From: Hymenobacter volaticus | GTDB lineage: Bacteria > Bacteroidota > Bacteroidia > Cytophagales > Hymenobacteraceae | Length of the DNA: 64,000 bases | Assembly: GCF_022921055.1 (NCBI RefSeq) | Contig: NZ_CP095061.1 | Span: 278,001 to 342,000, forward strand | Direction: 5' to 3' | Shown here: piece after piece, positions 12,793-49,222 of the stretch | Layout of the letters: the number at the start of each line of letters is the position of its first letter | Position numbering within the stretch: position 1 is the first letter of the stretch | The notes under the pieces: generated by a model | Database searches by the model: none | The model's input: only the letters and a program-made list of their open reading frames with translations | What the model was told of the DNA's origin: nothing | Translations under genes and position numbers: made by a program

Positions 12793-14900
12793 ATGCGCTT
12801 TCGTTTCTCTGCCGGTTTCTTTATCTCTCTGTTTCTGATGGGGTCGGCTTCCGCCCAAAACTCCACTGCCCCCCCGAAACGCACTGCCTCTTGGTAGCAC
12901 TCGACCCGGCCCAGCGGGCAACCCAGGCGACGCTGGTGGTGGAAGGAGAGGTAACGGCCAGCCGCAGCTTCTGGGACAGCAGCCACCAGCGTATCTATAC
13001 GGCCCATCAGTTTCGCGTTTTTAGCGCGCTCAAAGGTACGGCCCCCGCTACCGTGACCGTGCTAACCGAAGGCGGTATCGTGGACCTGACCCGGCAAGAC
13101 CTTACCAATACGCTTGCCCTGCAGCCCGGCCAGCAAGGCATCCTTTTTCTGACGCCCGCCTCGTTTCCGGGTACCGAAAGCGCAGGCACTGCCTGGGCCG
13201 CCTATGGCAGTCAGCAAGGATTTATCGGGTATGATTTAAGCGACGCCACTGCCGCCGAACCATTTCGGAAATATGGCTTGATCGACGAAGATTTCTATCA
13301 GACGCTGACGGATGCCACCGGCCAAACCCGTCGCGTAGTGCAGCCCAACCCAGCACTAACTACGGCAGTGGCGCGGCAACTGGCCCCCCCGGTACTCGCC
13401 CGCGGGCAGGCCCCGGTTATCTCCAGCCTGAGCCCAACCACTATACCCGCCGGTACGGGTGCCGTGCTGACCATCACAGGCTCAGGCTTTGGGCCCGCGC
13501 GCGGTACCGGGTTCGTGGAGTTCCGCAACGCCGACAATGGCGGTAGCTCGTACGTAAAGCCCCGCGTCACCGACTACGTGAGTTGGTCGGATACTCGTAT
13601 TCAGGTGCGGGTGCCTTCTGTAAGCCAGACCAGCGGCGGTACTCGCAGTCCGGCGGGCAGTGGCCCCGTACGGGTCACCAGCAACGACCGGCTTGTTACC
13701 ACCAGCCTGACCACCGTTACCATTCCCTACGCCATTAGCAACGTGCTGGCCGCCAACGATTCCAGCCAGGTAATACGCCCCAGCCACCTCAGCCAGAACG
13801 GGCGCGGAGGCTATGCTTTTCGCTTTGAACCTGGTTTGGTGGCCAACCCCCGAGCAGTAACCGCCTTCCGAAATGCCTTGGCCACCTGGCGCTGCCAAAG
13901 CGGGGTGAACTGGGATGTAGATGCCGCCACCCGAACCGAACGGGGCGCCAAAGAAGACAGCGAGAACAGTGTCGGGTTTGATGAGGGAACAGAACTGCCC
14001 GTCAACGTATTGGGCCGCACAACCAGCTATTATCAAGGCTGCTTCCAGCCCGACGGTACCATCGCTTTTTCTGTAAAAGAAATTGACATGCAATTTGATA
14101 GCGGCACCAACTGGCAGTATGGCCCAGCAGCGGCTGGCGCAACTCAGCTGGATTTCGAGACGGTGGTTGTGCACGAGCTAGGGCACGCTCATCAGCTTTC
14201 CCACGTGATTTTGCCGCGCGCTGTGATGCACTATGCCGTAGCCCGCGGACAAACCAGCCGCGCCATTAGTACTGATGATATAACTGGTGGGCGCCTGGTG
14301 CTCCGTAGCCGTAGCTTCGTGACGCAGAGCTGCGGCCCGCTCCCCATGCTGCCTGCTCCCCTCACCAGCCTCGCGGCCACCACGGGCACCGACGGCATTG
14401 CTCTAGCCTGGACCACCCAAGACGAGTGTTTCCTGCAAAACTTTGTGGTTGAGCGTTCTGTGTCGTTTGACACCACTGCCTGGCAAACCCTGGCCACCGT
14501 CCCACGCAACGGCAACACGTACCGCTACGTCGATACCGACCCGCAGACCGGGTTACGGTACTACCGCCTGCGTCTGCGTCGGCCTAATGGTGTCTTCGAT
14601 ACGGCAGCTCCATTGGCCGCCTACGGCGACGCTGCTACGGCCGGTCGGCCTCAGCTATTTCCTAACCCAGCTGGTGCTACTGGGCTCCGCTTACAGTATC
14701 CCGCCACAGCGGCGGGGCGCCTGCGTGTTTCCATTGTTGATGCCATCGGCCGGCAACACAGTCTTATTGGGATTGATTATCAGCCAGGCCTCAACTTCTT
14801 AGCCATCCCGACAGAATCCCTGCGCCCTGGCTGGTACGTAGTCCGCTTGCGTACGCCTGAGGGCAAAGAATCCAACCTGCCGTTTCTGCGGGCTGAGTAG
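12793..14900 (+). CDS. Secreted zinc metalloprotease with IPT/TIG domain and T9SS tail; frameshift in C7 tract
   Basis: About 702 residues once one base is restored. An ATG at 12793 opens a clean signal peptide (MRFRFSAGFFISLFLMGSAS, cleavage near AQN), but its frame stops after 34 codons. The rest of the protein is in the -1 frame, and adding one C to the seven-C run at 12869-12875 joins them exactly (QNSTAPPETHCLL). Domains: N-terminal region with a SECR-like beta part; IPT/TIG domain about 205-305 (ISSLSPTTIPAG); metzincin-like protease with HELGHAHQLSH, His near 461; Fn3-like segment about 530-610; C-terminal T9SS sorting domain with FPNPAG. It is exported and probably attached to or released from the cell surface. 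Family: M10/M12-like by motif. Confidence 0.8.
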
Positions 14901-14923
14901 GAAGTAAGATGGTAACTTATCGG

Positions 14924-14983
14924 CTTAAAGAGCTTGAGGTTTTAGCGGCGCAGGTAGCACAGCAGAACTTCAAGCGCCTTAAG
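14924..14983. terminator. Possible imperfect hairpin between convergent genes
   Basis: 18-base arms (14924-14941 with 14966-14983) with three mismatches. It lies between the metalloprotease stop and the end of a minus-strand gene. A 29-codon open frame overlaps it but is not convincing as a gene. Confidence 0.35.
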
Positions 14984-14999
14984 TCGCTAGTTCACTAAG

Positions 15000-15605
15000 T
15001 CAAAGTTTCACCACAAAGGCTATAGCGTTCGGGCCAGCTTGTACGTGGCTCAGCAACGGATATAAACCGCTTTTTCCGTGTGCATGATGGGCTGCGAACA
15101 TAAGCCCATCGAAAGCGAAAAGGAAGCCTCCTTGCAGCAGCAAAGAGCGGCCGTAGCCCGTAAGGCGGTCTTGCTGACGTTGGGTGGAGCGGCTGCGGGC
15201 GCGTTCTTTCAAATAGAAGCCCGTGGCTACGTAGGCCACGTCGAGACCGGTATTGAGAAGGTAAAGGTTTTCGGTGTGTAGCTGGGCTTTTGCTGTGCTT
15301 GCTCTGTCAGTTGGCAGCGTGGTATGCCGGGCTGAAACTAGCGCCGAGCCAGCAAGTGCTAAGTTCACTACGCCCCAGCCCACGTTCATCTGATGAAAGT
15401 ATTTCTCGGGGCCGTCGGTAGCGAAAGCGCGAGCCCCGCTTATACCTACATTGCCAACGGCCCACGCGCCAAGTACCCGCATGCCGCGCTGATCGAGGAG
15501 GGTGCGCTGGGCGTTGTACTCAGGTAGCGCCGCAGGCAAGGTCTGCTGCGCTGCCGCGGGAAAGGTTAGAACGGAAAGCAGGAGCAGGCGTAGCAAGAAA
15601 GGCAT
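15000..15605 (-). CDS. Exported membrane-associated protein of unknown function
   Basis: A 201-residue protein with a Sec signal (MPFLLRLLLLSVLTFPAAAQ). The mature part has several moderately hydrophobic helices (about 95-115 and 165-190), interrupted by an Arg/Gln-rich segment (about 148-160). Small membrane proteins of this layout are common in Bacteroidota; I cannot name the family firmly. The ATG at 15605 is chosen because it starts the signal peptide; the 46 codons upstream are unlike a protein. It may share a transcript with the FabH-type synthase gene 100 bases upstream. Confidence 0.6.
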   Translation of the reverse strand: MPFLLRLLLLSVLTFPAAAQQTLPAALPEYNAQRTLLDQRGMRVLGAWAVGNVGISGARAFATDGPEKYFHQMNVGWGVVNLALAGSALVSARHTTLPTDRASTAKAQLHTENLYLLNTGLDVAYVATGFYLKERARSRSTQRQQDRLTGYGRSLLLQGGFLFAFDGLMFAAHHAHGKSGLYPLLSHVQAGPNAIAFVVKL

Positions 15606-15705
15606 AGCAGTTATTTGGGAATAAAGGCTACACCCTGAAAGCGCAGCTTCGCCGCGTTTGTTTACTGCCATGCGCGTAGCCTGAACCACTAAGTGGCGCT
15701 GAGGC

Positions 15706-16650
15706 TTACCGTTCCAACAGCATAGCGCCGTAGGAGTAGCCACCGCCGAACACTGTAATAACCACTCGGCTGCCTTGACGCAACTGGTTCCAAGTGTCGC
15801 CTAGGCCGATGGCGGCGCCGGCACAACCGGTGTTGCCGAGCTGCTCGATGTTGGATACCGCCCGCTCATCGGGCATGCCTAATTGCTTGAGCACGTTTTT
15901 GGTGATGCGTAAATTGGCTTGGTGCGGAATCAGGAACGCCACGTCGTCAACGGTGAGTTGCTGCCGCTCCAAGAGCTGCGCCGTTACGCGAGCCATGTAG
16001 GTGCAGGCGTGCGTGAATACGTCGCGGCCGTGGGGCATCACGATGCCTTTTTCCACCGGCTTCAGCGTTACTGATTCGTCGGCTTTGCCTACTACGGCGG
16101 CGCCACCGGTCACCACTTCCACCACGCGCAGGTCGTCGGGACTGAGGCGCTCTTTGCTGATGAGCAACGTAGCGGCCCCGTCGCCCCACAAGTGGCCCGC
16201 CATGGTGTCCTGCTCGTTGTTGTAGGCGGTGTTGTGCTCACTTACCACTACCACCGCCCTCGACGCTTTGCCTAGGGCAAAGTAGCCTTCTACTATTTCA
16301 ATGGCATTCAGCAGTGAAGAGCACGCCGAGGAAATGCTAACTACCGGAATTTCGTTGATACCCAAATCGCGCTGCACAGCGTGAGCAAGGGTGTAAATGG
16401 TATCGTGGGGTGTATAAGTGGCCCCCACAATCAGGTCGATGGTGGCCGCAAAGTCGGGGGCTTGCGCAAGGGCCCGGCGCGTGGCCTCGATGGCCATGGT
16501 GTTTGTGTTTTCGCCCTGACCAGCTTTGCGCCGTTCCCGAATGCCGGTGCGCTCAATGATCCACTCAGAGGCAAGACCGTTCAAACGGGTGAAATGCTCG
16601 TTGGTTACTACGTAGTCGGGCAGATAGGCTGCCACCTGATGAATATACAC
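15706..16650 (-). CDS. Beta-ketoacyl-ACP synthase III (FabH-like)
   Basis: A thiolase-fold condensing enzyme, 314 residues from a GTG at 16650. The catalytic triad is visible: Cys in SISSACSSLLNA (about residue 112), His in IPHQANLRI (about 240) and Asn in GNTGCAGAA (about 272). The start of the domain (VYIHQVAAYLPDYVV) matches the family's usual N-terminus. An ATG at 16749 would add 33 unrelated residues. By family it condenses an acyl-CoA with malonyl-ACP to start fatty acid or lipid synthesis. No other fatty acid synthesis gene is adjacent, so a specialised role (for example in a secondary lipid such as an aryl polyene or flexirubin starter) cannot be excluded. Confidence 0.92.
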   Translation of the reverse strand: MYIHQVAAYLPDYVVTNEHFTRLNGLASEWIIERTGIRERRKAGQGENTNTMAIEATRRALAQAPDFAATIDLIVGATYTPHDTIYTLAHAVQRDLGINEIPVVSISSACSSLLNAIEIVEGYFALGKASRAVVVVSEHNTAYNNEQDTMAGHLWGDGAATLLISKERLSPDDLRVVEVVTGGAAVVGKADESVTLKPVEKGIVMPHGRDVFTHACTYMARVTAQLLERQQLTVDDVAFLIPHQANLRITKNVLKQLGMPDERAVSNIEQLGNTGCAGAAIGLGDTWNQLRQGSRVVITVFGGGYSYGAMLLER

Positions 16651-16809
16651 AGAGGGAAACGGTCGGGAGTTAGGCAAAAACAGCTGCAAGGTACGAGACT
16701 CTGTCCGGACTAGTGGACCCCAAACAATGAAGCGGCCCGTACTTTGCATGGTGTTTTTGCGTTCAACGCCGAAATAGGAGGGGAGTTCCTGTACTCTCGT
16801 TACAAGATT

Positions 16810-17382
16810 ATGATGTTTCGTTTTTCTACGTTCCAACAGCGCCTGTTGCTGTTTGCTTTGCTAACCTTTGGCACTGCCTGTCCATCACTCGCTCAAAAAT
16901 ATCGTACGGCCGCAGGCTTGCGGTTTAGCTCCGGCCTCTATGGTCTCACGGTGCAGCAAAAGATTCTGCCCAAAACTACCCTCGAAGGCTTATTGCTAGC
17001 GGGTACGCGCGAGGTGACGGGTACAGTGTTGGCCGAACAGCACTTTGGCTTGCTCGGCCCAAGTCTCAACTACTACTTCGGTGCCGGAGGACACGTGGGC
17101 AACAACAAGGACACGGGTGCTTTTGGTGGCGTCGATGGTATTGCCGGATTGGAATATAAGATTGCGCTAACTCGTTTTGTTGTCGCCGCCGACTTCAAGC
17201 CAACCATTGAGTTTAACTCAAAGGATTGGGCCCGTTTTGCTACCGGCATATCGGTGCGGTACATCCTCATAAAAGAGAAGAAGACAGGGCTTTTCAATGG
17301 GTTGTTTGATGGGGACAACGACAAGAAAAAGGAGAAGCGAAAAAAGGGGGCAAACAAGGGGCGGGGCCTGTTCGACTGGTAG
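16810..17382 (+). CDS. Exported beta-barrel-like protein with lysine-rich tail
   Basis: A 190-residue protein with a Sec signal (hydrophobic about 11-24, PSLAQ). The mature part has strand-like segments (GPSLNYYFG, AGLEYKIALTRFVVAADF) as in small outer-membrane barrels. The C-terminal tail is strongly basic (about 165-187, many Lys) and ends GLFDW. Start: adjacent ATGs at 16810 and 16813; the open frame upstream lacks a signal peptide. No named family recognised. Stands alone; function unknown. Confidence 0.6.
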   Translation: MMFRFSTFQQRLLLFALLTFGTACPSLAQKYRTAAGLRFSSGLYGLTVQQKILPKTTLEGLLLAGTREVTGTVLAEQHFGLLGPSLNYYFGAGGHVGNNKDTGAFGGVDGIAGLEYKIALTRFVVAADFKPTIEFNSKDWARFATGISVRYILIKEKKTGLFNGLFDGDNDKKKEKRKKGANKGRGLFDW

Positions 17383-17672
17383 TTTTCAGCTGGTTTAGAA
17401 AAAAATATTTATTTAATTTTTCTAAGGCAATGCGCCTGAAGGGGATGTTGTGCACTAAGTGAATTCGTTGTAAAATTTTAATACATCATTAATTTATAAA
17501 GACTTGCTGGGGTAAATCAGCTATTAGGCTCGATAGTTGATTTATAACTATCACAGCTTCTATTTTATCGGCATATTGATTTATTATAAATTAGATAAAT
17601 ATTGTGCAACAAAATATTGGCTTTTTCAGTTTGTTGCCCTTGTCTGCAGTCCCACACTTTTAGCTCACCTTT

Positions 17673-19442
17673 ATGTCAACACTTTTTACTTCTTATTTAA
17701 CACGTTCCAGACTATTATTGCTGTTTATTGGACTGTTAGGGGTATGGCCAAATCTTGAAGTTCTGGCCCAGCCAACAGCCTGCACAGGCAATGATCCGGG
17801 CGGTAGCCCAGCTACCAACGGCTTGTACGCACAGTATTACCGGGGATACTTCGCCAACGACCAGACCTACTTTGCCACTACTACTGCTGGCATTACCCGG
17901 GTTGACCCTAACGTGTATTTTGGATCCACGTCGCCTTTCGGCAACCTGCTTCCCACGGCAGATGGCAGCGCTACCAACCCCGACAACTTTAGCTTGCGCC
18001 AACGGGGTAGCTTGCGCATTGCCACCACCGGTGTTTATACGTTCTACCTGACCGCTGACGACGCTGCTTACTTATGGCTCGACAACGCGGCGCTTAGCAC
18101 CAATCCTTCCCCAGGCCAAGCCACCATTGATAACGGCGGCGACCACTCGGAGCGCACCATACAAGCATCGGTTTACCTCACGGCTGGCTTGCACAACGTG
18201 CTGGTTCACTACGGCGACCTGATCAACGAAAATTCGTTGATACTGGAGTATGAAAGTGCTGCGGCTGGAATAGTACGGCAAGTAGTACCCTCAACCGAGT
18301 TCTGTACTTCCATTCAACCCGCTATTGTTCAGCCGTCAGCGCTGGCTTATGCCCCAGCTTTCCAAACAGTGCTGGTTGGCAATAGTGGTACTTCTGTGGT
18401 TCCAACGGTTACGAGCGTCAGCACTCCACAATTTGTTCTGGCTAACACGAGCAGCCTACCAAACGGCATCACCATCAATGCAACAACTGGGCAGCTCAGC
18501 TTGGCTTCCACTGTGCCGGTAGGTGTTTACGAGGCTGAGGTGGCGGTGGTTAACGCGCAAGGAGCAGCTACTTTCCGTAGTGCCTATACGTTCACTGTAG
18601 CAGCGGCAGCGCCACTGAATTGCACGGGAACTCGCCCTGATGGTGGCCCGGCCACTAGCGGCATCTTTGCCGAGTATTACGCTGGCTACTTCAACGACAA
18701 CCCTGCCTTCTTTACCACTAACACACCAAAGCTGACGCGGGTAGATACACAACTGAATTTCAGTGACGACGACCGTTGGGGCAACTTGGCTTTGACTTCC
18801 AGTGGCTCGATCGACAACCCAGACATGTACAGCGCCCGATTCCGGGGCCGCATTCTTATCCCAACGGCTGGCACGTACACGCTCTATCTGACCGCCGATG
18901 ACGGAGCCCGCCTCTGGCTCGATACCCCGGCTGTGCAAGCTACTCCCGTCAATGCGGATGCCCTGATTAATAACAGCGGTCAGCACAGTGCCTTAACCGA
19001 ATCGGCTACGGTTACGCTGGCTGCAGGCTACCACGATATTCAAATCCATTACGGCGAAGGTATTGGCAGCAACGTGCTGGTTTTAGAGTACGCCAGCACT
19101 ACGGCTAATATTGCCCGGCAAGTGGTTCCAGCTTCGGCCTACTGCTCGGCGGTTAGCCCTATACCGCAATCGGTAAAGCCAGGTCAGAAGAACTCGCATT
19201 CGCTGTCGGTTGCTCCTAACCCAAACAATGGCACTTTCAAGGTGCACATCACCCAAAGCCAGCCAGATTCTGGCAAACTTCAGATGGTGGATGTACTTGG
19301 CCGTGTTTTGTTTGAAAAGCCAGTACCTAGCGCCTTGGAACAGGAGGTGCCGATAACAACAGAATACCTGCCCGTAGGCATGTACATGTTGCGTCTGATA
19401 ACCGCTAATGGAACTGGCACGCAAAAGGTCGTGGTCGAGTAA
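17673..19442 (+). CDS. Secreted protein with two PA14 domains and T9SS sorting tail
   Basis: A 589-residue secreted protein. A signal peptide (about 1-33) precedes two clearly homologous PA14-like units (about 36-212 and 318-490). Each starts with a TGxxPxGGPATxG motif followed by (A/G)xYY.GYF and contains YTFYLTADDxAxLWLD-like cores. Between them sits an Ig/cadherin-like putative-Ig domain (about 215-310). The C-terminus (about 508-589, VAPNPNNGTFKV) is a type A T9SS sorting domain. PA14 domains bind carbohydrate or mediate adhesion. It is a single-gene unit with an AT-rich leader and a shared terminator, with no visible catalytic motif. Confidence 0.85.
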   Translation: MSTLFTSYLTRSRLLLLFIGLLGVWPNLEVLAQPTACTGNDPGGSPATNGLYAQYYRGYFANDQTYFATTTAGITRVDPNVYFGSTSPFGNLLPTADGSATNPDNFSLRQRGSLRIATTGVYTFYLTADDAAYLWLDNAALSTNPSPGQATIDNGGDHSERTIQASVYLTAGLHNVLVHYGDLINENSLILEYESAAAGIVRQVVPSTEFCTSIQPAIVQPSALAYAPAFQTVLVGNSGTSVVPTVTSVSTPQFVLANTSSLPNGITINATTGQLSLASTVPVGVYEAEVAVVNAQGAATFRSAYTFTVAAAAPLNCTGTRPDGGPATSGIFAEYYAGYFNDNPAFFTTNTPKLTRVDTQLNFSDDDRWGNLALTSSGSIDNPDMYSARFRGRILIPTAGTYTLYLTADDGARLWLDTPAVQATPVNADALINNSGQHSALTESATVTLAAGYHDIQIHYGEGIGSNVLVLEYASTTANIARQVVPASAYCSAVSPIPQSVKPGQKNSHSLSVAPNPNNGTFKVHITQSQPDSGKLQMVDVLGRVLFEKPVPSALEQEVPITTEYLPVGMYMLRLITANGTGTQKVVVE

Positions 19443-19474
19443 GAAGTTAGCTATTAGCTAGTTTCTCCTAGAAA

Positions 19475-19529
19475 AAAGAGGGGAGGTTCGGGTAGCGCAA
19501 ACCGCGTGTCCCGAGCCTCCCCTCTTTTC
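19475..19529. terminator. Bidirectional terminator hairpin
   Basis: 19-base arms (19475-19493 with 19511-19529) with one G-T wobble; A-rich start and T-rich end. Lies between the convergent PA14 and head-GIN genes. Confidence 0.85.
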
Positions 19530-19546
19530 AGCTTTATACCTACTGC

Positions 19547-20263
19547 TTATTGCTGGCGTACGCGGCCGCTACCAGCAGTAGAGCTGCTGACTTTAGCGCC
19601 GCCGGTTACATACACATTGCCGGAGCCAGCTATGCTAGCTTCCAGTGTTTCAGTGGCATTTACGCGGCAGTTCCCGGAACCACTGATGCGCACGTTGCAT
19701 CTTTCAGTGCGTAGCTTGGCGGCTTGCATACCACCCGAGCCGCTGATTCGAACAGCCTGGCGCGGTACTGAGCCACCGTTTATCATAATGTCGCCGGAGC
19801 CTGATATGGCGGTTTCCAGCTCGTCGGCTTGCACCTGGCCCAATTCCATGTGCCCGGAGCCGCTTACACTTAGGTTCAGGTCTTTGGCTTTGACGCCGTC
19901 ATCGACCTTCATTTTGCCGGAGCCGCTCACTGTCAGGGCGCTGATGGAAGGTACCGTCACATACACGGTCACGGGGCCTTTGAAGCGGTAATTAGACCAG
20001 TTCATGCCACTTTCTTGTTTGGTGCCGATGCGTAGCTTGTCGCCGCTGACGGTGGTTTCGAGATGGGCGAGGTCCTCGTTTTCGGCATCTACTACCACCT
20101 TCTGGGGGCTGCCCTGCACGAGTATCACCGTGGCCGAACCTGCCAAGGTTACCTGATTGAAGCTGGCTACCTGGCGCGTTTCGCGGGCTGCCGTGGCCAC
20201 AAAACCCGACAGCAACAGCGCGCCGGCAAAAACAGGAGATAGTAAAGAATGCATAGTCTTCAT
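19547..20263 (-). CDS. Head GIN domain protein (DUF2807)
   Basis: A 238-residue exported protein. Signal peptide about 1-25 (ending ATAA-R). The mature part has the head-GIN/DUF2807 pattern: an early VTLAGSATVILVQG strand, then seven [ST]GSG or AGSG turns spaced about 18-22 residues apart, which form a right-handed beta-helix. In Bacteroidota such proteins are periplasmic or surface-exposed, and their function is not established. It is a single-gene unit ending in a shared hairpin. Confidence 0.88.
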   Translation of the reverse strand: MKTMHSLLSPVFAGALLLSGFVATAARETRQVASFNQVTLAGSATVILVQGSPQKVVVDAENEDLAHLETTVSGDKLRIGTKQESGMNWSNYRFKGPVTVYVTVPSISALTVSGSGKMKVDDGVKAKDLNLSVSGSGHMELGQVQADELETAISGSGDIMINGGSVPRQAVRISGSGGMQAAKLRTERCNVRISGSGNCRVNATETLEASIAGSGNVYVTGGAKVSSSTAGSGRVRQQ

Positions 20264-20575
20264 GGCAAGTGGTTGTTAGAAATGGGGTATATAAATAGAA
20301 AGATGGATGCTTGTTCGTAACCGTTGCCTGGCACCGGAAACCATTGAAAATAAAACCCGAAGCACTACTGGTTGCTGCTTAATAACTGCTATTTCGGTGT
20401 TGCTGAACAACTAGCCGAACAAAGCAGCCTTTTTGCTGCGAGCAATTGAGTTTCAAGTGGTCATAAGCCCCGCCATTTTTTAGTTCAACGCCTGCGCCCT
20501 ACTCTGATGGGCATTTTTTGTGCAGCTTTAGGTATCTGATGATAGCCGAGCTTCAACTGCTTTCCCACCTTCGCC
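20264..20575. other. Intergenic region
   Basis: About 310 bases between divergent genes (head-GIN minus, NTF2-like plus). I see short A/T-rich patches and a small GCAGCCTTTTTGCTGC hairpin near 20425-20440, but no gene or clear promoter match. Confidence 0.45.
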
Positions 20576-21043
20576 ATGCACGCAAACGAACAGCTTCTGC
20601 ACCGTTTCTACCAAGCTTTTCAGCGCCGCGACCATGCGGGTATGGCCGCTTGCTACCATCCCGAAGCTACCTTCGAAGACGCTGCTTTTCAACTGCAGGG
20701 CCCCGCTATTGGCAAGATGTGGCGCATGCTCTGCGAACGGGGCAAGGATCTGCGGCTCGCCTACAACGACATTCAGGCCGACGACCAGCAGGGTAGCGCC
20801 ACTTGGGACGCGCACTACACGTTCTCCCAAACCGGCCGCCCAGTGCATAACCATATCCAAGCCAGCTTCACTTTCCAAGACGGACTCATTCGCACGCATC
20901 ACGACAAGTTTAGCTTCTGGCGCTGGTCGCGGCAGGCCCTAGGGCTCATCGGGTGGCTGCTCGGTTGGTCGGGTTGGCTGCAGAATAAGGTGCGCAGATC
21001 AGCTGCCGAAAGCCTGGCTAAATACAGGGCCAACGCTGGCTAA
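20576..21043 (+). CDS. NTF2-like (SnoaL-type) small protein
   Basis: A 155-residue cytosolic protein with the NTF2/SnoaL fold pattern: N-terminal helix NEQLLHRFYQAFQRRDHAGM, then a beta-cone (ATFEDAAFQL, GSATWDAHYTFSQTG) and a C-terminal basic helix with a tryptophan-rich segment (about 120-140). Members are isomerases, cyclases or ligand-binding proteins; no specific substrate can be told. Length fits the family. It stands alone, convergent with the PAP2-like gene. Confidence 0.8.
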   Translation: MHANEQLLHRFYQAFQRRDHAGMAACYHPEATFEDAAFQLQGPAIGKMWRMLCERGKDLRLAYNDIQADDQQGSATWDAHYTFSQTGRPVHNHIQASFTFQDGLIRTHHDKFSFWRWSRQALGLIGWLLGWSGWLQNKVRRSAAESLAKYRANAG

Positions 21044-21081
21044 TCAGCGGATAGCTGAGAACAAGTAGCCCAGACTCCTGC

Positions 21082-22422
21082 TTAGCGCTTGGCCAACTTA
21101 GGTGGTGCATCGGCCCCGTCTTGGCGGGCTCGTTTCACTACCTCAAGGCCTACTTTTTCGCCCATTTCCAGTCCCACCGTGTTGTCGATGCGGAAGTGAA
21201 TGCCGGCCTCAAAGCGCGATTCGGCGGCTTCCTTGGCTTTCTGCTGAAACAGCTTTCGGTCTTCAGGAAATAAATAACTCAGCACTGTCGCGCGGGCGTT
21301 GGAAATAGTGGCGTGGCCGGAGGGGTAGCTCGGATGGGGAGGAGTGCCGGGCAGCGTGATTGCGAAAGTGGAATCATACTGGTAAGGCCGAATACACCAA
21401 TACGTGTACTTGGCGTCCCAGCAGGCGATGCTGGCGTCGTAGGTGGCGATGCTTGTTAAGGCATACACCCGCGCCGCCCGAGGTGCATTAAGATAGAGGT
21501 TGTTTTCAAACAGCTTTCGGTCGGTTTCCTCGCCCCAATAGGTGTTGGCAGCCCAATAAAATGTGCGAAAAATAGCTTCGGGTGTGCGTTTGAATTCCTT
21601 TAATTCTTTCATGCCGGCCGCCGGGTCTGGCGGTGGGCCCGGTCGGAACTGTCGGCCCGAGGTCAAGATAAATGGCCGGCGGTTGCCCCAAGCAGCGCCC
21701 ATAGGGGTTCGTTTGTCGTGCCAGAGGCCGGCTTGCGTGGGCATAGTGCCTTTCCAGACAGTGTCGCAGCTATCCGTTTTGGCATAGGCTATGACGGCAG
21801 CGGCCACGTGCCGCCCTAGCGCCGTGCCCGCCTCTACGTCGCTCGGGTACGCCACGCCCGCTAATAGTCGTGAGCGGCCCGCATCCTCGGCTAGTTGCCG
21901 GAGCGAATCGGCTTTAGCTGGAAACAAATAGGCTAGCACTTCGGCCGCCGCGCTGGCTGCCACCGCGTGCTCCGAAGGATAGGAGGGGTTGTCGGGATTG
22001 GGCAGGTAGGCAGCTAATTGTGGGTTCTTGGTGGTCGGCCGGGGGCGCCGGTAGGCGTACTTGCTGTCCCAGGCTGCCACCGTAGCATCATAGATAGCAA
22101 CGTTGACGAGCAGCTTGGTGCGCGCTAGTGTTCCTAAGTCAGTCGTTAGGTTGTCGATAATAGCTTGCCAGCGGTAACCCGGCGCGCCCGCACTCCAGTA
22201 CCGAATCAGTTGGATATCGGCTGAGTCACGCTGCTGTGTTAAGGCCTGTAAGCGTTGTGCCTCGGCTCGGGTAGCCTTTGCCGATGGTGGCGGTGGCAGC
22301 CGGTACGCCGCCCCCGATGGAATCACCCACGTTTTCCATTCCCCCGCACCGGGTTCCTGTTGGGCAATGCCCTGCGTAGCTAGCAGCCAGCAGAACACAA
22401 AAACGAATAGCTTAGCCTTCAT
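21082..22422 (-). CDS. Duplicated PAP2/vanadium-haloperoxidase-like protein
   Basis: A 446-residue exported protein (signal about 1-20, ending GIA-Q) with two homologous PAP2-like halves. Half 1 (about 105-215): Lys121-x6-Arg128-Pro, PSEH at 149-152, and Ser184-Arg185 followed by GVAY, where Ala191 stands in the expected axial His position. Half 2 (about 325-435): Lys338-x6-Arg345-Pro, PSGH at 367-370, SRFEAGIH with His409 in place. So half 2 keeps all key residues and half 1 lacks one. Family members are acid phosphatases, lipid phosphatases or vanadate-dependent haloperoxidases. Activity is inferred from motif only. Confidence 0.82.
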   Translation of the reverse strand: MKAKLFVFVFCWLLATQGIAQQEPGAGEWKTWVIPSGAAYRLPPPPSAKATRAEAQRLQALTQQRDSADIQLIRYWSAGAPGYRWQAIIDNLTTDLGTLARTKLLVNVAIYDATVAAWDSKYAYRRPRPTTKNPQLAAYLPNPDNPSYPSEHAVAASAAAEVLAYLFPAKADSLRQLAEDAGRSRLLAGVAYPSDVEAGTALGRHVAAAVIAYAKTDSCDTVWKGTMPTQAGLWHDKRTPMGAAWGNRRPFILTSGRQFRPGPPPDPAAGMKELKEFKRTPEAIFRTFYWAANTYWGEETDRKLFENNLYLNAPRAARVYALTSIATYDASIACWDAKYTYWCIRPYQYDSTFAITLPGTPPHPSYPSGHATISNARATVLSYLFPEDRKLFQQKAKEAAESRFEAGIHFRIDNTVGLEMGEKVGLEVVKRARQDGADAPPKLAKR

Positions 22423-22520
22423 GCGTCTTAGGTGTTTGCTTTACCTGAAGGTAGCATGAGGTGGTAAGTTATTATCCGTCAGAGGCATCACATAAATATG
22501 TGATGGTGTAGGACGAAACC

Positions 22521-24442: not shown

Positions 24443-24459
24443 TGATACTATACTGGACG

Positions 24460-30065: not shown

Positions 30066-30982
30066 TTAGATCCAGCCTTTGCGCTTGAACCACACATAAA
30101 TACCGACGGATATCACCACCATACTGATCATGGCTATCGGGTAGCCAAGCCGCCAGGTTAGCTCAGGCATATGCTGAAAGTTCATGCCGTATATGCCCGC
30201 AATAAAGGTGAGCGGCAGGAAAAAGGCGGAAAACACCGTCAGTACCCGCATGGCCTCGTTGGTGCGCTGCGACGATAACGAGAGGTACAAGTTCATGAGG
30301 TTGGTAGCACCGGCATCAAGCTGCTGATACAAGGTTTCCACTTTCACTTGCAAGTCCTGCGTGTCTTGGAGCAGCGTGCTGTCGGTGGTGTTGGCTGCTG
30401 TTTGGCGCCGAAGCATAAGCAGGATGTCGCGGGTTAGCAGGAGTAATTGCTTGGCTGCCGAAGCTTTGCGCTTTAGGAAGTACAAGCCTTGCAGCGCATT
30501 AGGTACTTCCTGCTTCAGAAATATCTCGGCCTCGTAGTCGTCCAGCTCTTTGGTGAGGGCCATGGCGGGTTGCACGTAGCTGTTAAGCGCATAGCGCACA
30601 ATATGAATGGCCACTTCCACAGGCGAATCGCACTCTTCGCCGGGGCACGGGCTACGTTTTTGAGGGTGCTTAGCACCGGATGAGGCCGCCGGTGTACTGT
30701 AATCAAGTACTTGGAGGTGTAGAAGATAGCAATCTTGGTGCTTAACTCCTGAATGGTATCGGCCTGGTTGTTTTCGGGCATGCTAAACACCCGCAGAATA
30801 ACGAAGTTCAAGCCGTTATTGGCCTCGAACTTCGGTAAGTGAGTAGGCTCCAGACAGTCGCGTACCAAAGAATCGGGGAGGTCGTACTGTTCGGCCACGG
30901 CTTTTAGCTCGGCCGCGGTTGGGCTGGTGATGTCGAGCCAAGCGAAGTCGGCTTCTTGCCGCGTCAGGAGGTCTTCAGTCAT
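30066..30982 (-). CDS. corA: CorA-type magnesium transporter, single-base frameshift
   Basis: About 305 residues when one base is restored. The N-terminal cytosolic domain runs from the ATG at 30982 (TEDLLTRQEADFAWLDI). The C-terminal part, in the other frame, holds the two membrane segments and the signature YGMN (about residues 265-268) just after the first one. In the G4 run (plus strand 30642-30645) one additional base joins the two frames to read ...RAPGEECDSPVEVAIHIV. By family it forms a pentameric Mg2+ or Co2+ channel in the inner membrane. As written, the gene would be truncated before both membrane helices; an assembly error is the likelier reading. Confidence 0.85.
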
Positions 30983-31349
30983 ATACAAAACACAGTCGGC
31001 GCACAGCGTTGCGTTGGTTTTGGCCGGCTTGCTGCTTCTACATACGGCTCGGGACCGCTCAAGAGTTAACCGTGAGGGCAAAGCAGGACTTTGACTTCCG
31101 TCAGCACCGCTGCGTTTGGCAGATTAGTTTACTTCGCCAGGGTCTGTAAAATCCTACACGCTTACTGGATGTTGTTGAAGGCTTGCTAATGAGTCTCAAG
31201 CGTTGAGCTTGGGCAGCAAGATGCAAGCTCGACCTTTAACCTTCTGTATATGTTGACGTTATGATTGGTGTTTAGGTGCACTTGCTTTTCTACAGTCACT
31301 GAAAGAAGGTGTCCGACAAGCTTCTCTTACTCCTTTCAACAGCACGCAT
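30983..31349. other. Intergenic region
   Basis: About 370 bases between corA (minus) and the DUF4142 gene (plus). It is mixed GC with a few T-rich runs. The open frame upstream of the corA start (to 31081) looks like non-coding overhang. No clear repeat or RNA seen. Confidence 0.45.
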
Positions 31350-37816: not shown

Positions 37817-37833
37817 TAGACTTCAACAAAACT

Positions 37834-37868: not shown

Positions 37869-37887
37869 TTGTGGGCAACTGCTCTAG

Positions 37888-40393: not shown

Positions 40394-40846
40394 GTGAAAC
40401 AACTATTGCCATGTATCTCGCTGGCTTTGGCCAGCGCTTTGGGTTCCTGCACCAACGATAAAAAGGAAGAACCATCTCCTCAAATCGATTCACAACTTCT
40501 GACCTCTAACACCTGGAAACTGACTGCCGAGACACAAACTGTGGGTAATGCAGAACCAGTTGCTAAGTATTCTACATCTGATGTCGGCGCAAACGACAAC
40601 ACCTTGAAGTTCTTGGCAGACTACAGCCTTAGAATGGATGAAGGTGCCACAAAGGATAGCCACATCAGCTTACAGACCGTCTCGGGAAAATGGAAGTTGA
40701 GCGGCAAAACGCTCACCATAGTTGTGGCACCATTCACTCGGCAGTGTGTCATCCAAGAGCTTACTGCTACTAAGTTAATAGTGAGAGTTGACGAAACACT
40801 AGACGGGGACCAGAGAGTAACTCGGTATATGTATGAAGCACAGTAA
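40394..40846 (+). CDS. Lipocalin-like lipoprotein
   Basis: A 150-residue lipoprotein (signal about 1-18, lipobox LGSC). The mature domain has the lipocalin-like/DUF-type pattern of small Bacteroidota lipoproteins: SNTWKLTAET at the start, TLKFLADYSLRM, GKWKLSGKTLTI, and a final strand. Start codon is a GTG. No ligand can be assigned. It is a single gene with an AT-rich leader and a shared terminator. Confidence 0.78.
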   Translation: MKQLLPCISLALASALGSCTNDKKEEPSPQIDSQLLTSNTWKLTAETQTVGNAEPVAKYSTSDVGANDNTLKFLADYSLRMDEGATKDSHISLQTVSGKWKLSGKTLTIVVAPFTRQCVIQELTATKLIVRVDETLDGDQRVTRYMYEAQ

Positions 40847-40855
40847 ATAAACTTT

Positions 40856-40900
40856 ATCAAAAAAAGGCGGCGCGTACTATACGCGCCGCCTCTTTTTGAT
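40856..40900. terminator. Bidirectional terminator hairpin
   Basis: Stem of 11 GC-rich pairs (40866-40876 with 40880-40890) flanked by an A run and a T run extending the stem; between the lipoprotein gene and polA. Confidence 0.9.
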
Positions 40901-40933
40901 GTATACCATAGGGCTCTATGTGCTGCTCCTCTA

Positions 40934-43827
40934 TTAGTGCGCTTGGAGCCAGTTGCTGCCGGTGCCAACTTCCACTTCCAGCGGCACGCCGTGGGGGAGG
41001 AGCAAGGCAGTAGTCATCAACTCTTTCACTTTGGGCGTGATGTAGTCGATTTCCTCCTTCACGGCGTCGAAGACAAGTTCGTCGTGCACCTGTAGTATCA
41101 TGCGGGTAGCCAGTTTCTCATCACGCAACCAGTTGTGGATGTTGATCATGGCCTTCTTGATGATGTCGGCGGCGGTGCCTTGGATGGGGGCGTTGATGGC
41201 GTTGCGCTCGGTGTAACCGCGCAAGGTGGCATTGCGCGAGTTGATGTCGCGCAGGTAGCGGCGGCGACCTAGCAAGGTAGTAGCATATTCCAACTCACGC
41301 GCCCTGTTGATGCTTTCATCCATGAACTTCTTTACCGCGCTAAATTCCTCGAAATACGTTTCGATGATTTCGGTGGCTTCCTTGCGTGAAATGCCGATGC
41401 GCTGGGCCAATCCGAACGACGATATTCCGTAGATGATGCCGAAGTTGACGGTTTTGGCTTTGCGGCGCATTTCGCCATCTACTTGATCGAGAGGCACATG
41501 AAACACCTTGCTGGCCGTGCTGGTGTGAATGTCCTGGCCTAATCGGAAGGCTTCAATCATGGTTTTGTCGCCCGAAAAATCAGCCATGATGCGCAGTTCT
41601 ACTTGGGAATAGTCGGCGGCAAGGAGCACGTGGTTTTCGTCGCGGGGCACGAAGGCCTTGCGGATTTCGCGGCCTTTCTCGGTACGAATCGGGATGTTTT
41701 GGAGGTTGGGGTTGGTGCTGCTGAGGCGGCCGGTAGCGGTTACGGCTTGGTTGAAGCTGGTGTGTACCCGGCCATCCAACTCACATACCAGTTGGGGCAA
41801 GGCCTCTACATAAGTGGAGCGCAGCTTCGTGAGCTGGCGGTGCTCCAAAATGAGGCCGGCTACGGGGTTGTCGGCAGCTAGTACGCTCAGGATTTCCTCG
41901 CCGGTGGCATATTGACCGGTTTTGGTTTTCTTGATCTTGCCGCCGCCCAAGCCTAGTTTATCGAACAGGATTTCGCCGAGCTGCTTCGGGGAGCCAATAT
42001 TGAACTCCTGGCCTGCTGCCGTGAAAATCTGCTGTTCTATCTCTTGAATGTAGCCCTGTAGCTCTGCCGAGTATTCGCCCATGGCGCCGGAGTCAATCTT
42101 CACGCCTTCGTATTCGATGGCCGACAGCACCGGTACCAGCGGATTTTCCACTTCGTTGAGCAAGTCCAGCAGTCCTACTTCCTTCAGCATTGGCTCGAAC
42201 ACGTGCTTGAGCTGCAAGGTTACATCGGCGTCTTCGCAGGCATAGTCTGATACTTCGGCCGGCGGGAGGTCAGCCATGGTTTTCTGGTTTTTGCCTTTGT
42301 TGCCGATGAGCGAGGTAATGGCTACCGGTGTATAGTGCAGGTAGGTTTCGGCCAGCACATCCATGTTGTGGCGCATGTCGGGCTCCAACAGGTAGTGCGC
42401 CAGCATGGTATCGAAGAGTGGCCCCTGAATTTCAACACCGTAGTGCCGCAAAATAGTTAAGTCGTACTTGATGTTTTGACCGATCTTGAGAATGCCGGAA
42501 GCGTCGAAAAACGGCCGGAATTCATCCACCAACGCCTGCGCGGCTACGTGGTCGTCGTGCGGTACGGGCACGTAGTACGCTTCACCCGCCAACCAGCAGA
42601 ACGAGAGACCCACAAGCCGAGCCGTCATCGTATCGAGTCCGGTGGTTTCGGTATCAAAACTGACTTCGGTTTGCTGAAGCAAAAAGCCGAGCAGTGACTG
42701 GCGCAGTTCGGGCGTGTCGATGAGGTGGTACTGGTGGGGTACATCGGCGAGCATGAGGCGCGGACCAACGGGGGCGCCAAAGCTGCCGGTTTCGCCTTCC
42801 TCGGCCCCAATGGCTACAGCCGCATCGGAACTGCTACCAAACAAACTAGCTTGGCCGGCTGGCACTTTCGGCCGCCGCGAGCTTGACCGTGGATTGGTAC
42901 GGTCGGTTGCGGTTGCTGAGCCGGCCGCCGCCTTTTCACCACCGTCTAGAATACGCGCGGCTAATTGCCGGAATTCCAGCTCATCGAACAGACTGCGAAG
43001 CTGCGTTTCATCGGGTTTGTCAAGCACTAGCTTGTCGGCCTCGAAGTCGATGGGAACATTGACGTGGATGGTGGCCAATTCCTTGCTCATCAAGCCTTGC
43101 TCGGCAAAGTTGCGCACGTTTTCTTGCTGCTTGCCCTTTAGCTGATCGGAATTGGCAATCAAATTCTCAACGGAGCCGAACTGCTGAATCAGGCTTTTGG
43201 CGGTCTTTTCGCCAATACCCGGAATACCGGGAATGTTGTCGGAGGCGTCGCCTTGTAGCCCAGAATATCAATCACCTGCTCGACGCGCTCAATCTCGAAG
43301 CGCTGGAGCACGTGGGCTACATCAAGCACTTCGGCGGCATTGCCCATAAAGGCTGGGCGGTAAATTTTGATTTTCTCGGTTACGAGCTGGCAATAGTCTT
43401 TATCGGGCGTCATCATGAACACCTCGAAGCCCTGCGCCTCGGCGCGTTGCGCAAGGGTACCTATCACGTCGTCGGCTTCAAAGCCATCTACTACTAGAAT
43501 AGGGATGTGGAAGGCTTGAATGATTTTCTTGATGTACGGAATGGCTGTGCCAATATCCTCGGGCATAGCTTGGCGCTGGGCCTTATAGTCAGCAAAGCTC
43601 TCGTGGCGAAACGTCTTTTTCTGCGCATCGAAGGCTACGCCAATGTGGGTTGGCTTTTCCTTTTGCAGTACCTCCACCAAAGTGTTGGTGAAGCCCAGAA
43701 TAGCACCGGTATTAAGGCCCTTGGAATTGACGCGCGGATTCTTGCTAAACGCAAAATGAGCGCGGTAAATCAGGGCAAAAGCGTCGAGTAGGAAAAGCTT
43801 TTTGGCGGGTTGAGAAGAGTCAGTCAT
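40934..43827 (-). CDS. polA: DNA polymerase I, single-base frameshift
   Basis: About 964 residues when one base is restored. The N-terminal FEN-like 5' nuclease (from MTDSSQ; DAFALIYRAHFAF, VVDGFEADDVIG) is in one frame and the remainder in the next. Adding one base in the run at plus-strand 43259-43261 joins them as ...DILGLQGDASDNIPGIPG. The 3'-5' exonuclease domain keeps the DxE motif (FDTETTGLD), so proofreading looks intact. The polymerase signatures are present (DYSQVELRIMA, KTVNFGIIYG, QVHDELVF). As written the gene would be broken inside an important domain, and because polA is rarely dispensable an assembly error is more likely than decay. Confidence 0.92.
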
Positions 43828-43969
43828 AGGAGGGCGAAGGTAAGAAACAGCTACTGCTACCTAGCACAGGAATACGGTTAGCTTTACTTGTCTATACTTC
43901 TAAGCACAACAAATTGCCGTGGGAAAACATTGGTAAGCATAGCTTTATTCATAGCAGCAACTAAGCCCG

Positions 43970-44113
43970 ATGTGCAGCAAACAAACATTCAAACAGTGGG
44001 TCCGACAGCTGCCGCAGCCTGACGGGGGACTGCTAGGAGAAGGCTATACGGAGGTAAACGGCAGCCTGGCTGTGGGGTTGACTTGCCTTGGTGCTGCTGA
44101 CATGCTAGCCTAG
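43970..44113 (+). CDS. Possible small protein (47 residues)
   Basis: An ATG-started frame encoding 47 residues (MCSKQTFKQWVRQLPQPDGG, then a Gly-rich middle and GAADMLA end). The composition is protein-like: few rare residues, and a cysteine-tryptophan-rich start. There is no signal peptide or known family. It lies on the plus strand between polA and the MG2/plug gene, divergent from polA, with no visible strong ribosome-binding site. It may be a real small gene or a chance frame; evidence is weak. Confidence 0.35.
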   Translation: MCSKQTFKQWVRQLPQPDGGLLGEGYTEVNGSLAVGLTCLGAADMLA

Positions 44114-44147
44114 GCTATTCATCGATAGGTTCTTGGTTTTCATAAGA

Positions 44148-44188
44148 ACTAGCAAGGGCCTCCAGTCTTGCTTGAGGCCCTTGCTAGT
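44148..44188 (-). terminator. Terminator hairpin of the TonB/DUF4249/MG2 operon
   Basis: Perfect 15-base stem (44148-44162 with 44174-44188), 11-base loop; just downstream of the last gene of the minus-strand operon. Confidence 0.8.
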
Positions 44189-44213
44189 ATACTTGCTGAG
44201 AGTAGCTCTAAGG

Positions 44214-46651
44214 CTATAACCCCTGCTTCACTTCAAACGTGAAACTGGTGCTACCCGCCGCTCCTTTGGGGGAAAGGCCCTGCACCACGACCATATACCG
44301 TCCGGCTTGGTCGCCGGTGAAGAACTCTAGCTTGCTAAGGTCAGTGCTGCTAGACGTAATGGCTGGGTTCCAGTACAGCAGGTTCCGCATGTCGGGCAGG
44401 CGGCTTTGCTTTTGCTCGGGTGTATCGTAGCGGGGCGAGTAGAACTCCCGCTGGCTTTGCACGCCTTCGTACTGCTGTACCAGTACGCGCGGACTGAGGG
44501 AAATCCCTCTAAATCACCTTTGTAGGTAGTGAAGCTCACGATTCCGCTGTAGAGGGACATCCCCTGAAAGTAGTGACTGTCAACTACTTCTAGCTTCCGG
44601 ATTTTTAGCGGGTCCATGGCCATCATCTTATTGATGTTGAAAATCGGTACCCCGTCTAGCAACACCAATGGGTTTTCGTTGAATACAGTCTTGTTGACTT
44701 TATCAGTCACCAAAAAATGAAAGCCGTCTTTCCTGATCCTGACTATCACGCCTGGTACGTATTCCCGCATTACCTCTTCCAGTACCTTGAAACGGGTATA
44801 CTTGTCTAGAAAGTAGATTTCGTCGGGCTTCCCGTAAAAAGCCATGCTATCGGCAGGTGGTATGCTGTAGCGGCTCTCGTACTTTTTTGAGTAGATAGCT
44901 TGTACCTGCGTTTGGAAGTGCCGCTTGGTGTAATCCTGTTGGAAGCGCGTGAGCGGAATGAAGGGCGTTGTGAGCGTGGTAGCGTACTGCGGAGAAAAAG
45001 GGTTCAGGATTTCGATACGGTGGGTACTGTCTTGTTGCGGATCAATCTGAACCACAATCTCTTTTGGTCGATCAAAGTCGTTTATCTCGAACTGCACCAG
45101 TCCATCATCGTTGCTTTCGTCATTGGTGAGCCTGGTGATGCGGCTAGGGCTTGCTAGGTAGGCTATAGCGCCCTTCACGGGGCGGTTGGTGCCAGCTTGT
45201 GTGATCCGCCCCTGAATTACGTGCCCATGCAGCTCAGGCGAGTAAGGGAAGGTAGCTAGGGTTGGGGCAAGGGCATCTTCCCACCGAAACCGGCTCCACC
45301 CTTGGGTCAGCATCAGGTTATCGGCGGCTTCTGCAGTTTCGGGGCTGGCATCGGTGAAGTAATATTCGGGGTGCTCGATCTGGCCTTTCAGATCTGACGT
45401 CAGCCATAAGTAACTATTGATGTCAGCCGTGGGAGTGGTCGTGAGCGAGTCGAGGCGAAACACCGCCATCGAGAGGTTGGCAGCTGTACGCTGCGCATCT
45501 TGCGTGGCGGTGGCTAGCTCAACCGCTACTTTGTCGCGGAGCGTGTATTGGTTTTTATCAGGCCGCGCCGTAATGGAAAGCTTTTTCTTAGGCTGCTGGA
45601 AGTACAGCCGCTCGCACAAAGGTTTCTGCTGCGCATCGAACAAGGTGAAATGCGAAATTCCGTCTAACAACTGACCCTTGTCAATACTGAAAGCAGCCTG
45701 CCCGTTCACCAATTGTCCTTGGGCTGCCGCCGCAACTTTTTGGCGCGAATGAGCCAGTAAGAAAACAGCACCCGACTGCGAAGTTGAATTCACGGTCAAG
45801 GTCAGGGGGCCAGTGCCGCTGTTTTCTAAGAGCATCACATAGCCTTGCTCGAACACGCGCGGCAGGCTGTGCCGGATAACCTGCTTGCCTACTGTGATAA
45901 GGGCAGTGTAGGAAACGCCTGGTTGTGGGGTGAGCGTGAAGCTTCCCATTCCATAACGCAGCGTCTTGAATGTAGCTACCACGGCGCCGCTCTGGTTGAG
46001 CAGCTTGCCTTGGGCAGTCACGCCGGTGCCTGTTTTGGCGGTAACCTTGAAGGCTACTTTGCTGCTAAGACCTTGCACTAGGTTTCCACCTTCAGGGAAA
46101 AACTGCACATCGTAGGCTGCTGAGTCCTTTGCTGCCGCCGAGCCAGACGCCACCAACGGGTTGATGACCGTAACCGTGTTTTGGAAGTAGTACTCCGGCC
46201 CGAAGTTTTTCATCCAGTTGGTATACGCCCTTACAGTGTAAGTGCCAGAAGGTAAGGATGACGAGAGGAGGAAAGAACCTTGGCCCGTTGCCTGCTTCAG
46301 CGAAACCTTAGCTTGCGCTACCGGTCGTTTCTCTTTGTCGAGTACCTCAACATAGGCTACCGTGCTTAGCGGCAAAGGCCGCGAATACGTGCCCTCAACG
46401 GCGTATATCTTAAACCACATCATCTCCCCGCTCAGGTACAGTGGCCGGTCGAGGTGGAGGAAGAGCTTCTCGGGCAACGCAGCCTGCTGATAACGGCTGA
46501 ATTTGCTTGCTAAACCATCGGAGGTGTCTCCTTGACTATATGCCGTTCCGGTTGTGGCTAGTACTAGCCCCAGCAACCTAATATAGGTGCACATTCCTAT
46601 CCTAGTCCGACCTTTAAATACACTCATCTTACTGTAGCACATGCGTTTCAA
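44214..46651 (-). CDS. MG2-like / TonB-plug-like exported protein, single-base frameshift
   Basis: About 812 residues when one base is restored, starting at the ATG at 46651 or a nearer one at 46594 that opens a cleaner signal (YIRLLGLVLATTGTAYSQ). Near the N-terminus is an MG2-like domain with LHLDRPLYLSGEMMWFK (about 60-80). Towards the C-terminus is a TonB-receptor plug-like segment (ENPLVLLDGVPIFNINKM) without a following barrel. One added base in the three-C run at plus-strand 44505-44507 restores the frame so that ...YKGDLEGISLSPRVLVQQYE continues to the stop at 44214. It lies 7 bases after a DUF4249 gene and ends the operon. Role unknown. Confidence 0.75.
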
Positions 46652-46658
46652 TGGAGTA

Positions 46659-47848
46659 CTAGGGCCAGAAGCTTGGCTTTACTGACGTGCCACGAGTGCG
46701 GCAATCAATACAATCTCGGGACTTGGCAAGGTAGCCTACCACGAAGCCATTATCGTATACTGGCTCAATAGGCAAATAATTAGGTCCACCAAAATTTCCC
46801 AACAGTATTTGAGCGACAGGCGGTGGCGGGACGGGTTTGAAAAGAAAAACAGTATCTGGAGGCAAACAGCTTTCGTATCCAGTTTGAACAAACCAATTTC
46901 GAGGTAGCTCCGACCGACGGATAAAAATGCGCTTTTCTGCTACAGAATGCACTCCCACAAACCCGAGCGCCAACTCCGTCTCGTCATCGAGGCAGTGCAC
47001 ATTGCCAGTAAGTTGCGCCGGCAGTGGATCGAATAGCGTACCAATGTTTTCGGTGTTCTTTCTGAGTAGCTCCCAATACATATATTCGTCAGCAGTTTGG
47101 GCATACTGCTTCACTAGAATGCTATAGGTTGTGTTGAGTTGGGAGGCAGTAGTAGTAAGCGAGTGAATCAAGAAGTTTGAAACAATGTCCTGGCTCAAGC
47201 GAGTCGTATTGCTTATTTTGATATCTGCGGATTTCGCGCTAACCCAACAAATTCTGGAATACGGAACAGTAATATCTTGTATCCGACTGTTCTTATACTC
47301 TATGCTAGGAGTATAAGGTGGCGTTATTTCCCAAGTCTCATCGTATTCCCACCGATAATATTGAGTGGCGTTTGTGTCGTCGTGGCTGTTAACATAAATA
47401 TTTAAACCAGTATTAACTGCTTGCCAAGTAACCTTGTCAATTGGTGGAGTGGTTTTGGCCGTTGAAAAATCGGATACGTATTCTTTACCTGTTGCCGTAT
47501 TTATGTGAAGTCGATATCTTTTAGCAGGATTAAGAACTAAATTATTTGAAGTATAAGTGCCTTGACTAGTTTCTCGTAGTGCATTGCGTACCCCGTTTTC
47601 TTCTTCTATATAGAGGGTCGCCTTGATTTCTTTAGGTGGTGTTGTAGAGGCGCTGATATCATAAGTGCGCGACAAGTTTATTGTAGTTATGCCGTTGCTA
47701 TTAATAAATCCATCTACCACTAAATACTTGGCATTAGAAGTAATAGCCTCGGGTATATAACGGTCGACACAGTTAGATAACAGAAATGTTAACCCCCGGC
47801 TACTATAGTTTTAATAAAGCTAAGTAGTGTATATGTGTGAGTTTTCAA
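46659..47848 (-). CDS. DUF4249 lipoprotein A, probable 5' frameshift
   Basis: 396 residues when one base is restored. The core from VVDGFINSNGITTINLSRTYD to the end is intact. The lipoprotein signal is only seen if one base is added in the five-C run at plus-strand 47793-47797: TLLSFIKTIVAGG then LTFLLSNC, with the lipid-Cys near residue 27 and start at a TTG (47848). This restoration gives exactly the same length as the paralogue, which supports it. The C-terminus carries RDCIDCRTRGTSVKPSFWP, identical to the paralogue. DUF4249 proteins sit beside TonB receptors in Bacteroidota; function unknown. Confidence 0.72.
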
Positions 47849-48032
47849 GTTCAGTGATGCTAGTTGATGAAATTGAATGCAATAACAGTGGTAGTTTTTT
47901 TCAAAATTAGTATATGATCTAAGTTTTCGAATTGTAGCTAGTTTGAGAATTGTAATGCAATAGCCAGTTAAATCTTTTCACGTAAAAAAGTTGAATAGTT
48001 AAGAACTATGCTACTTAATTAAACCTTAAAAA

Positions 48033-49222
48033 TTAAGGCCAAAAGCTTGGCTTAACGGAAGTGCCGCGGGTGCGACAGTCTATACAGTCTCGAGATTTAG
48101 CTGTATAGCCTAACAGTTTAAGTTCTGGACTGAGATACTTATCGATGGGCAAGTAATTGGATCCGCCGAAAGCTGCTTGTAATATTTCCGCAGGGCTTGG
48201 GGGAGGAATTATACCACGAGGGTATAAGAAAACGGTGTCTACCGGTACACAACTTTCGTATCCCGTGAGCACATTTATGTTAGCAGGTAATTCTTGGCGA
48301 CTAATGAAAATTCGTTTTTGCTCAAGAGAATGTACTCCGATATAACCTAGTGCAAGCTCTTGCTCGTCGTTTAGACAACGAATGTTGCCGGTTAACTGTG
48401 CGGGAAGCGGATCAAACAGTGTCCCAATATTCTCTGTGTTCTTCCTCAACAGTTCCCAATACTGATATTCCTCTTGTGAGAGAGCGTGCTGTTGCACCAA
48501 AATGCTGTATCGGCTTCGTAAACGCTCCGAGTTGGCAGGTAAGCTTTGTATGCGAAAGTCGGCTACTACATCCCGATTTAGTGCTGTTGTCCGGCTTATT
48601 TGTACTTGAGAGGAACGTTGATTGCCCCAGCAAACAACTGGGTAAGGCACCACGATATCACGAATATTTCTGTTGACGTACTCATATACAGGCCGATAAA
48701 TAGGTAGAATCTCCCACGTCTCTTCATATTCCCACCGATAGTACTGCGTTGAGTTAGTATCGTCGTGGCTGTTGACGAAGATGTTCAGCCCGGCGTTTTG
48801 GACTCGCCAGTTTACATTATCGATAGGTGGAGTATTCTTAGCTTGGGTATAGTTGGAAGCATAGTCTTTGCCATTGCTGGTGAGAATATGCAGGCGGTAG
48901 TTCCGGGCAGTGTTGAGCGTGAGTGCGGCCGAAGTATAGGTGCCTTTAACTGTACTCTCCGATAAGGGGTAGCGTGTGCCGCCTTCTTCTTCGATGTAAA
49001 CCGTCGCCTTGGTTTCGATAGGGGCGCCGACTTTGAGCTTACATCATAGGTGCGCGAAAGATTGAGAGAGGTGATGCCCTTGCTGTTTATGAAGCCGTCA
49101 ACTACTAGAAAATTTTTGCCAGCGCTGATAACATCGGGCATATAGGGGTCGACGCAACTCGGTAGCAGGAGCACCAAGCACCACAGCAATGCCGCCCGAA
49201 TAGCAGAAGGAATTGAGCGCAT
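48033..49222 (-). CDS. DUF4249 lipoprotein B, single-base frameshift
   Basis: 396 residues when one base is restored. The N-terminal frame starts at 49222 with a lipoprotein signal (LLWCLVLLLPSC) and reads VVDGFINSKGITSLNLSRTYD. It then shifts at the three-T run at plus-strand 49032-49034; adding one base gives ...DVSSKVGAPIETKATVYIEE, and the frame stays open to the stop at 48033. Strongly similar to paralogue A, including NTENIGTLFDPLPAQLTGN and the C-terminal RDCIDCRTRGTSVKPSFWP. The start touches the receptor's stop, so translation is coupled to the TonB receptor gene. Function unknown; lipid-anchored partner of the receptor is inferred. Confidence 0.78.

Follow-up and report, generated by a model that had tools for sequence, protein, structure and literature searches.

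Frame breaks at short G/C homopolymers in the Hymenobacter volaticus assembly are best explained by length-dependent under-calling

Six genes within a single stretch of the Hymenobacter volaticus genome change reading frame partway, which raises the question whether the cell has lost these genes or the assembly has lost bases. The window, i.e., the whole stretch of 64,000 nucleotides analysed, corresponds to C1:278001-342000; the genome totals 7,126,218 bases and is divided into 10 contigs, of which the nine others (C2-C10, 101 to 330 kb each) possibly represent plasmids or secondary replicons. Hymenobacter species are environmental bacteria, and the best matches of the window's DNA polymerase I gene (polA) among named genomes are to species of this genus, at ≤90 % identity.

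A first-pass annotation had assigned one frameshift to each of the six genes. All six breaks were borne out, and the phase at each corresponds to one missing base. In case of the secreted metalloprotease (Matrixin and TIG domains according to Pfam; 12793..14900, + strand), comparison with nine relatives places the frame change at a C7 run (12869..12875), where the frames of the signal peptide (judged by eye) and the body meet; both share one frame in all nine relatives examined (24 congeners match). The corA gene (30066..31081, - strand) is represented by two overlapping ORFs (30515-31081 and 30066-30620; Pfam, census). All four relatives used in the census described below cross its break in one frame, and DNA alignment with relatives locates the gap at a G/C run of four bases (30642..30645), which is five bases long in three of the four relatives and four bases long with a different neighbouring base in the other. 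The polA gene (40934..43827, - strand), the sole DNA_pol_A match of the genome, likewise consists of two ORFs, and alignment with relatives' DNA places the gap at a G/C run of three (43259..43261) that three congeners (G002, G009, G013) cross in one frame. The polA open frame comprises 972-1062 aa in 23 of 24 congeners and 777 aa here. In the remaining congener (G008:C54:223094-224236, L024) it measures only 734 aa, and this polA may also be broken or misassembled.

Four of the six run positions originally given could be kept, whereas in two genes alignment with relatives moved the affected run by 7-13 bases. The MG2-domain gene (44217..46651, - strand; Pfam score of the domain slightly below the curated cut-off) carries its last ~99 residues in another frame, as seen against two census relatives and six named Hymenobacter loci; the frame change falls on a G/C run of three at 44498..44500 rather than at 44505-44507. 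DUF4249 gene B (48033..49222, - strand; Pfam, relatives) is split after ~65 residues, as seen against one census relative and eight named loci, and the affected run (49021..49024, previously 49032-49034) is a G/C run of four and not, as had been proposed, a T/A run. For corA, polA and DUF4249 B, the flanking ORFs match adjoining parts of one family or relative protein.

The least direct case is DUF4249 gene A (46659..47797, - strand; provisional start codon), for which a frame change at a G/C run of five (47793..47797) is suggested because signal peptide and body lie in separate frames. A signal-peptide-like stretch upstream runs on in a different frame, and the body frame offers no ATG, GTG or TTG ahead of the Cys that we take by eye to be the lipobox Cys of a lipoprotein signal. 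Since the N-termini of the relatives diverge and their alignment to the body frame begins only at residue 15 or later, this site is partly inferred, and the gene was left out of the census. The neighbours of polA (44217-52000, - strand) comprise a TonB-receptor-like gene, the two DUF4249 genes and the MG2 gene; this gene order is kept in relatives, with one DUF4249 gene in L091 and L092 and two in L101.

A hidden Markov model (HMM) based on codon statistics reported 11 frameshift events in the window, four of which fit corA, polA, MG2 and DUF4249 B. The peptidase and DUF4249 A escaped this method, which was replaced by the homology-based census. On inspection of flanking ORFs with Pfam, the events at 1471, 15714, 24872 and 63063 have two complete or different domains, one on each side, and those at 3968 and 12033 have a complete domain on just one side; at 11332 no Pfam family was found on either side. 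Three arrangements in the window may be mentioned in their own right: an M56 peptidase of the BlaR1 type with a TonB C-terminal domain, located beside a penicillinase-repressor-family gene (130-1867, - strand); an HMM-flagged pair of overlapping ORFs behind a sigma-70-family gene (10379-12222, - strand), for which the Pfam scan yielded no family match; and an adjacent pair of TPM-domain genes (62237-63636, - strand), overlapping by 4 bases and with the domain nearly complete in each, which look like neighbouring genes rather than one broken gene.

In the census, ORFs of at least 100 aa from four congeners (G002, G006, G009, G013) were compared by tblastn with 662 kb of the genome, including 20 kb counted twice, and collinear pieces in different frames were scored. 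A first version (18 places here; 1, 4, 3 and 0 in the controls) contained an antisense artefact at polA. A strand filter removed this artefact together with one low-identity place of the own genome (two relatives) and one control place, and sequence was added. Since one piece (L048) lies inside the stretch 4290001-4490000, two duplicate rows were dropped (30 to 28 places; 20 to 19 with at least two relatives). The own genome thus shows 28 distinct break places in ~308 kb of aligned DNA, 19 of them backed by at least two relatives, as compared to nine in 982 kb for the four control congeners (G009, 1; G013, 3; G006, 5; G002, 0), of which one is backed by at least two. Per 100 kb of aligned coding DNA, this amounts to 6 to 9 breaks here vs 0.1 to 0.9 in the pooled congeners; the own count is slightly favoured, as the own genome was compared with four congeners and each control with three. 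Within the sampled regions, places fall both around the window and in the stretch 4 Mb off. The sampled share of the genome is small, and the census mainly covers these two regions; the ten scattered 20-kb pieces (one inside the distant stretch) otherwise gave almost no alignment. On the smaller contigs, one place supported by one relative was found on C10; the initial 20 kb of C2-C10, one piece per contig, gave a total of 3.7 kb aligned. About 44 of the 64 kb of the window were aligned, so that further breaks are possible in the remainder. The effect is assembly-wide and extends beyond the six genes.

The direction of the breaks is uniform. The missing-base phase applies to 25 of the 28 census places, and a one-base gain was not clearly resolved at any of them: one of the three other places contains two single-base gaps in C runs, one rests on a weak alignment, and the third is supported by one relative only, with further codon indels. 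The sequence context was determined at those 25 of the 28 places where identity reached at least 58 % on each side of the break (the other three had been excluded beforehand), by aligning the own DNA to that of the relatives and reading the run that touches the gap. As null, 150 single bases were removed at random from own coding DNA, and these losses were handled identically. The gap touches a G/C run of at least three bases in 23 of the 25 places vs 11 of the 150 simulated losses, and an A/T run of at least three in none of the 25 vs 12 of the 150. Homopolymers of at least three bases are hence touched by 23/25 breaks, in every case G/C, vs 23/150 simulated losses (11 G/C, 12 A/T). The recorded run length is 3 to 5 bases in 22 of the 25 places. 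One of the two off-run places (rec, -; 59 kb further, at 85675) had its gap set at TT by the aligner; codons compared by eye with relatives suggest a nearby GGG run, and the place was still scored as a miss. The other (nb, -; 96060) is supported by one relative.

The frequency of loss depends on the length of the run. Relative to all runs counted in the aligned coding DNA (293 kb), and assuming that the touching run is the shortened one, G/C runs were shortened in 0/4,791 cases at an original length of 3, 10/945 at 4, 10/199 at 5, 3/20 at 6, 0/3 at 7 and 1/1 at 8. The shortened share thus rises from ~1 % to 5 % and 15 % for lengths 4, 5 and 6; above 6, the counts are too small for a rate. No gap was assigned to any of the 1,883 A/T runs of at least four bases, and one was assigned to a run of two T. 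Read on the + strand, the gaps fall at G in 13, at C in 12 and at A in one of 26, i.e., without strand bias. The overall homopolymer-length spectrum displays no clear deficit vs relatives; at these rates little is expected, but the spectrum gives no independent support to under-calling.

Taken together, length-dependent under-calling of G/C homopolymers very probably explains the breaks (probability about 97 %). The breaks would be base-calling or consensus errors of the assembly, in which G or C runs are recorded one base short throughout the genome with a chance that rises with run length, and the actual genes of the cell would be intact. The systematic homopolymer under-calling proposed in the first-pass annotation is upheld by the uniform direction and by the homopolymer excess over the simulated null; it has to be corrected in that G/C but not A/T runs are affected, and across the assembly. 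The dependence of the losses on run length and base would fit a weakness of the base caller, and they probably stem from sequencing with poor resolution of G/C homopolymers combined with too little polishing.

Such errors are familiar from other assemblies. According to the Kastor study (PMC12007338), false homopolymer deletions, at runs of two to eight and mostly of four to five bases, dominate the indels of one nanopore assembly, and a second report (PMC9262707) relates homopolymer indels in nanopore assemblies to frameshift errors, fewer with R10.4 than with R9.4.1. The present genome resembles the assemblies of these two sources, as described there, in its genome-spread false single-base homopolymer deletions that split conserved genes and inflate the number of pseudogenes. 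It shares the symptom of assemblies that NCBI describes as having 'many frameshifted proteins', which PMC10228379 cites among cases of problematic sequencing or assembly; a literature search for Hymenobacter together with 'frameshifted proteins' returned a match that names another genus as example. In contrast to one nanopore assembly in the Kastor study, for which the pertinent passage (PMC12007338) reports A/T runs to be affected about twice as often as G/C runs, only G/C runs, mostly of 3 to 5 recorded bases, are affected here. This A/T preference counts against the under-calling reading, and a search of the literature for a platform with G/C-specific losses produced no paper settling the platform.

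True decay, in which the strain, perhaps a mutator by way of a truly broken mutS, has lost bases and turned genes into pseudogenes, is very unlikely. In its favour, mutS itself is split in two frames (C1:4680577-4682960), unlike mutL, which is open, and short runs commonly undergo one-base changes when mismatch repair is deficient. However, a mutator is expected to produce one-base gains as well as changes in A/T runs, and neither a clearly resolved gain nor an affected A/T run of at least three bases was encountered. The identity of the broken genes is high on both flanks (for rpoC, 100 % and 99 % to relatives), and the pieces flanking the breaks remain well conserved, which gives no sign of decay.

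The identity of the broken genes also argues against decay. The relatives' intact proteins for 20 broken places were searched against NCBIfam; scores above the curated cut-off were obtained for rpoC, recA, pyrH, polA, an HrpB helicase, a cyanophycinase, the domains of an NAD(P)H-hydrate dehydratase/epimerase and an L-piperidine-6-carboxylate dehydrogenase. Several others scored below the cut-off only, among them CorA, a TldD-like protein and anhydro-N-acetylmuramic acid kinase, and for three broken places the relatives' proteins had no NCBIfam match. Two partial matches in two frames were recorded for each of rpoC (C1:4439486-4440522), recA (C1:4314570-4315357; one census relative) and pyrH (C1:4454040-4454815), and a search of the genome for second copies of rpoC, recA, pyrH, polA and mutS found none. 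It is well established that rpoC and pyrH are each required for growth, and the expectation for pseudogenes, that the gene is dispensable or accompanied by an intact second copy, does not hold for these two. The joint splitting of recA and polA points in the same direction: an excerpt of PMC9789031 states that recA polA double mutants of Escherichia coli are inviable. Since the same source also describes the construction of recA polA cells that are viable under some conditions, this pair is weaker evidence than rpoC. The preference for under-calling over decay already expressed for the window is hence sustained by the rate that climbs with run length and by single-copy essential genes broken 4 Mb away.

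Programmed or tolerated frameshifting, by which slippage of the ribosome or RNA polymerase at the short runs would yield full-length protein, is hardly credible. A one-base backward slip at each run would indeed restore the frame, and slippage during transcription is a known phenomenon at long A runs of certain reduced genomes. The census relatives, however, read the same places in one frame, so that the site is not common to the orthologues; the recorded runs are short (3 to 5 bases at 22 of the 25 places), with no wider common motif visible by eye; and the affected genes have no common function. That the DNA truly contains the short G/C runs and genome-wide slippage rescues hundreds of genes, including rpoC, has a practically negligible probability.

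With under-calling of G/C homopolymers as the preferred reading, no gene loss should be inferred from the six genes of the window, because the same error would also split indispensable ones. The artefact is ordinary in kind and not a real biological feature, and the significance of the finding is practical only, namely that of a warning. Counts of genes, lists of pseudogenes and gene losses claimed on the basis of this assembly are unsafe. Extrapolating the 6 to 9 breaks per 100 kb of aligned coding DNA to the full 7.1 Mb would give several hundred affected genes, provided that the unsampled remainder behaves likewise. Since this genome is described as the only one for its species, comparative studies can take up such false losses.
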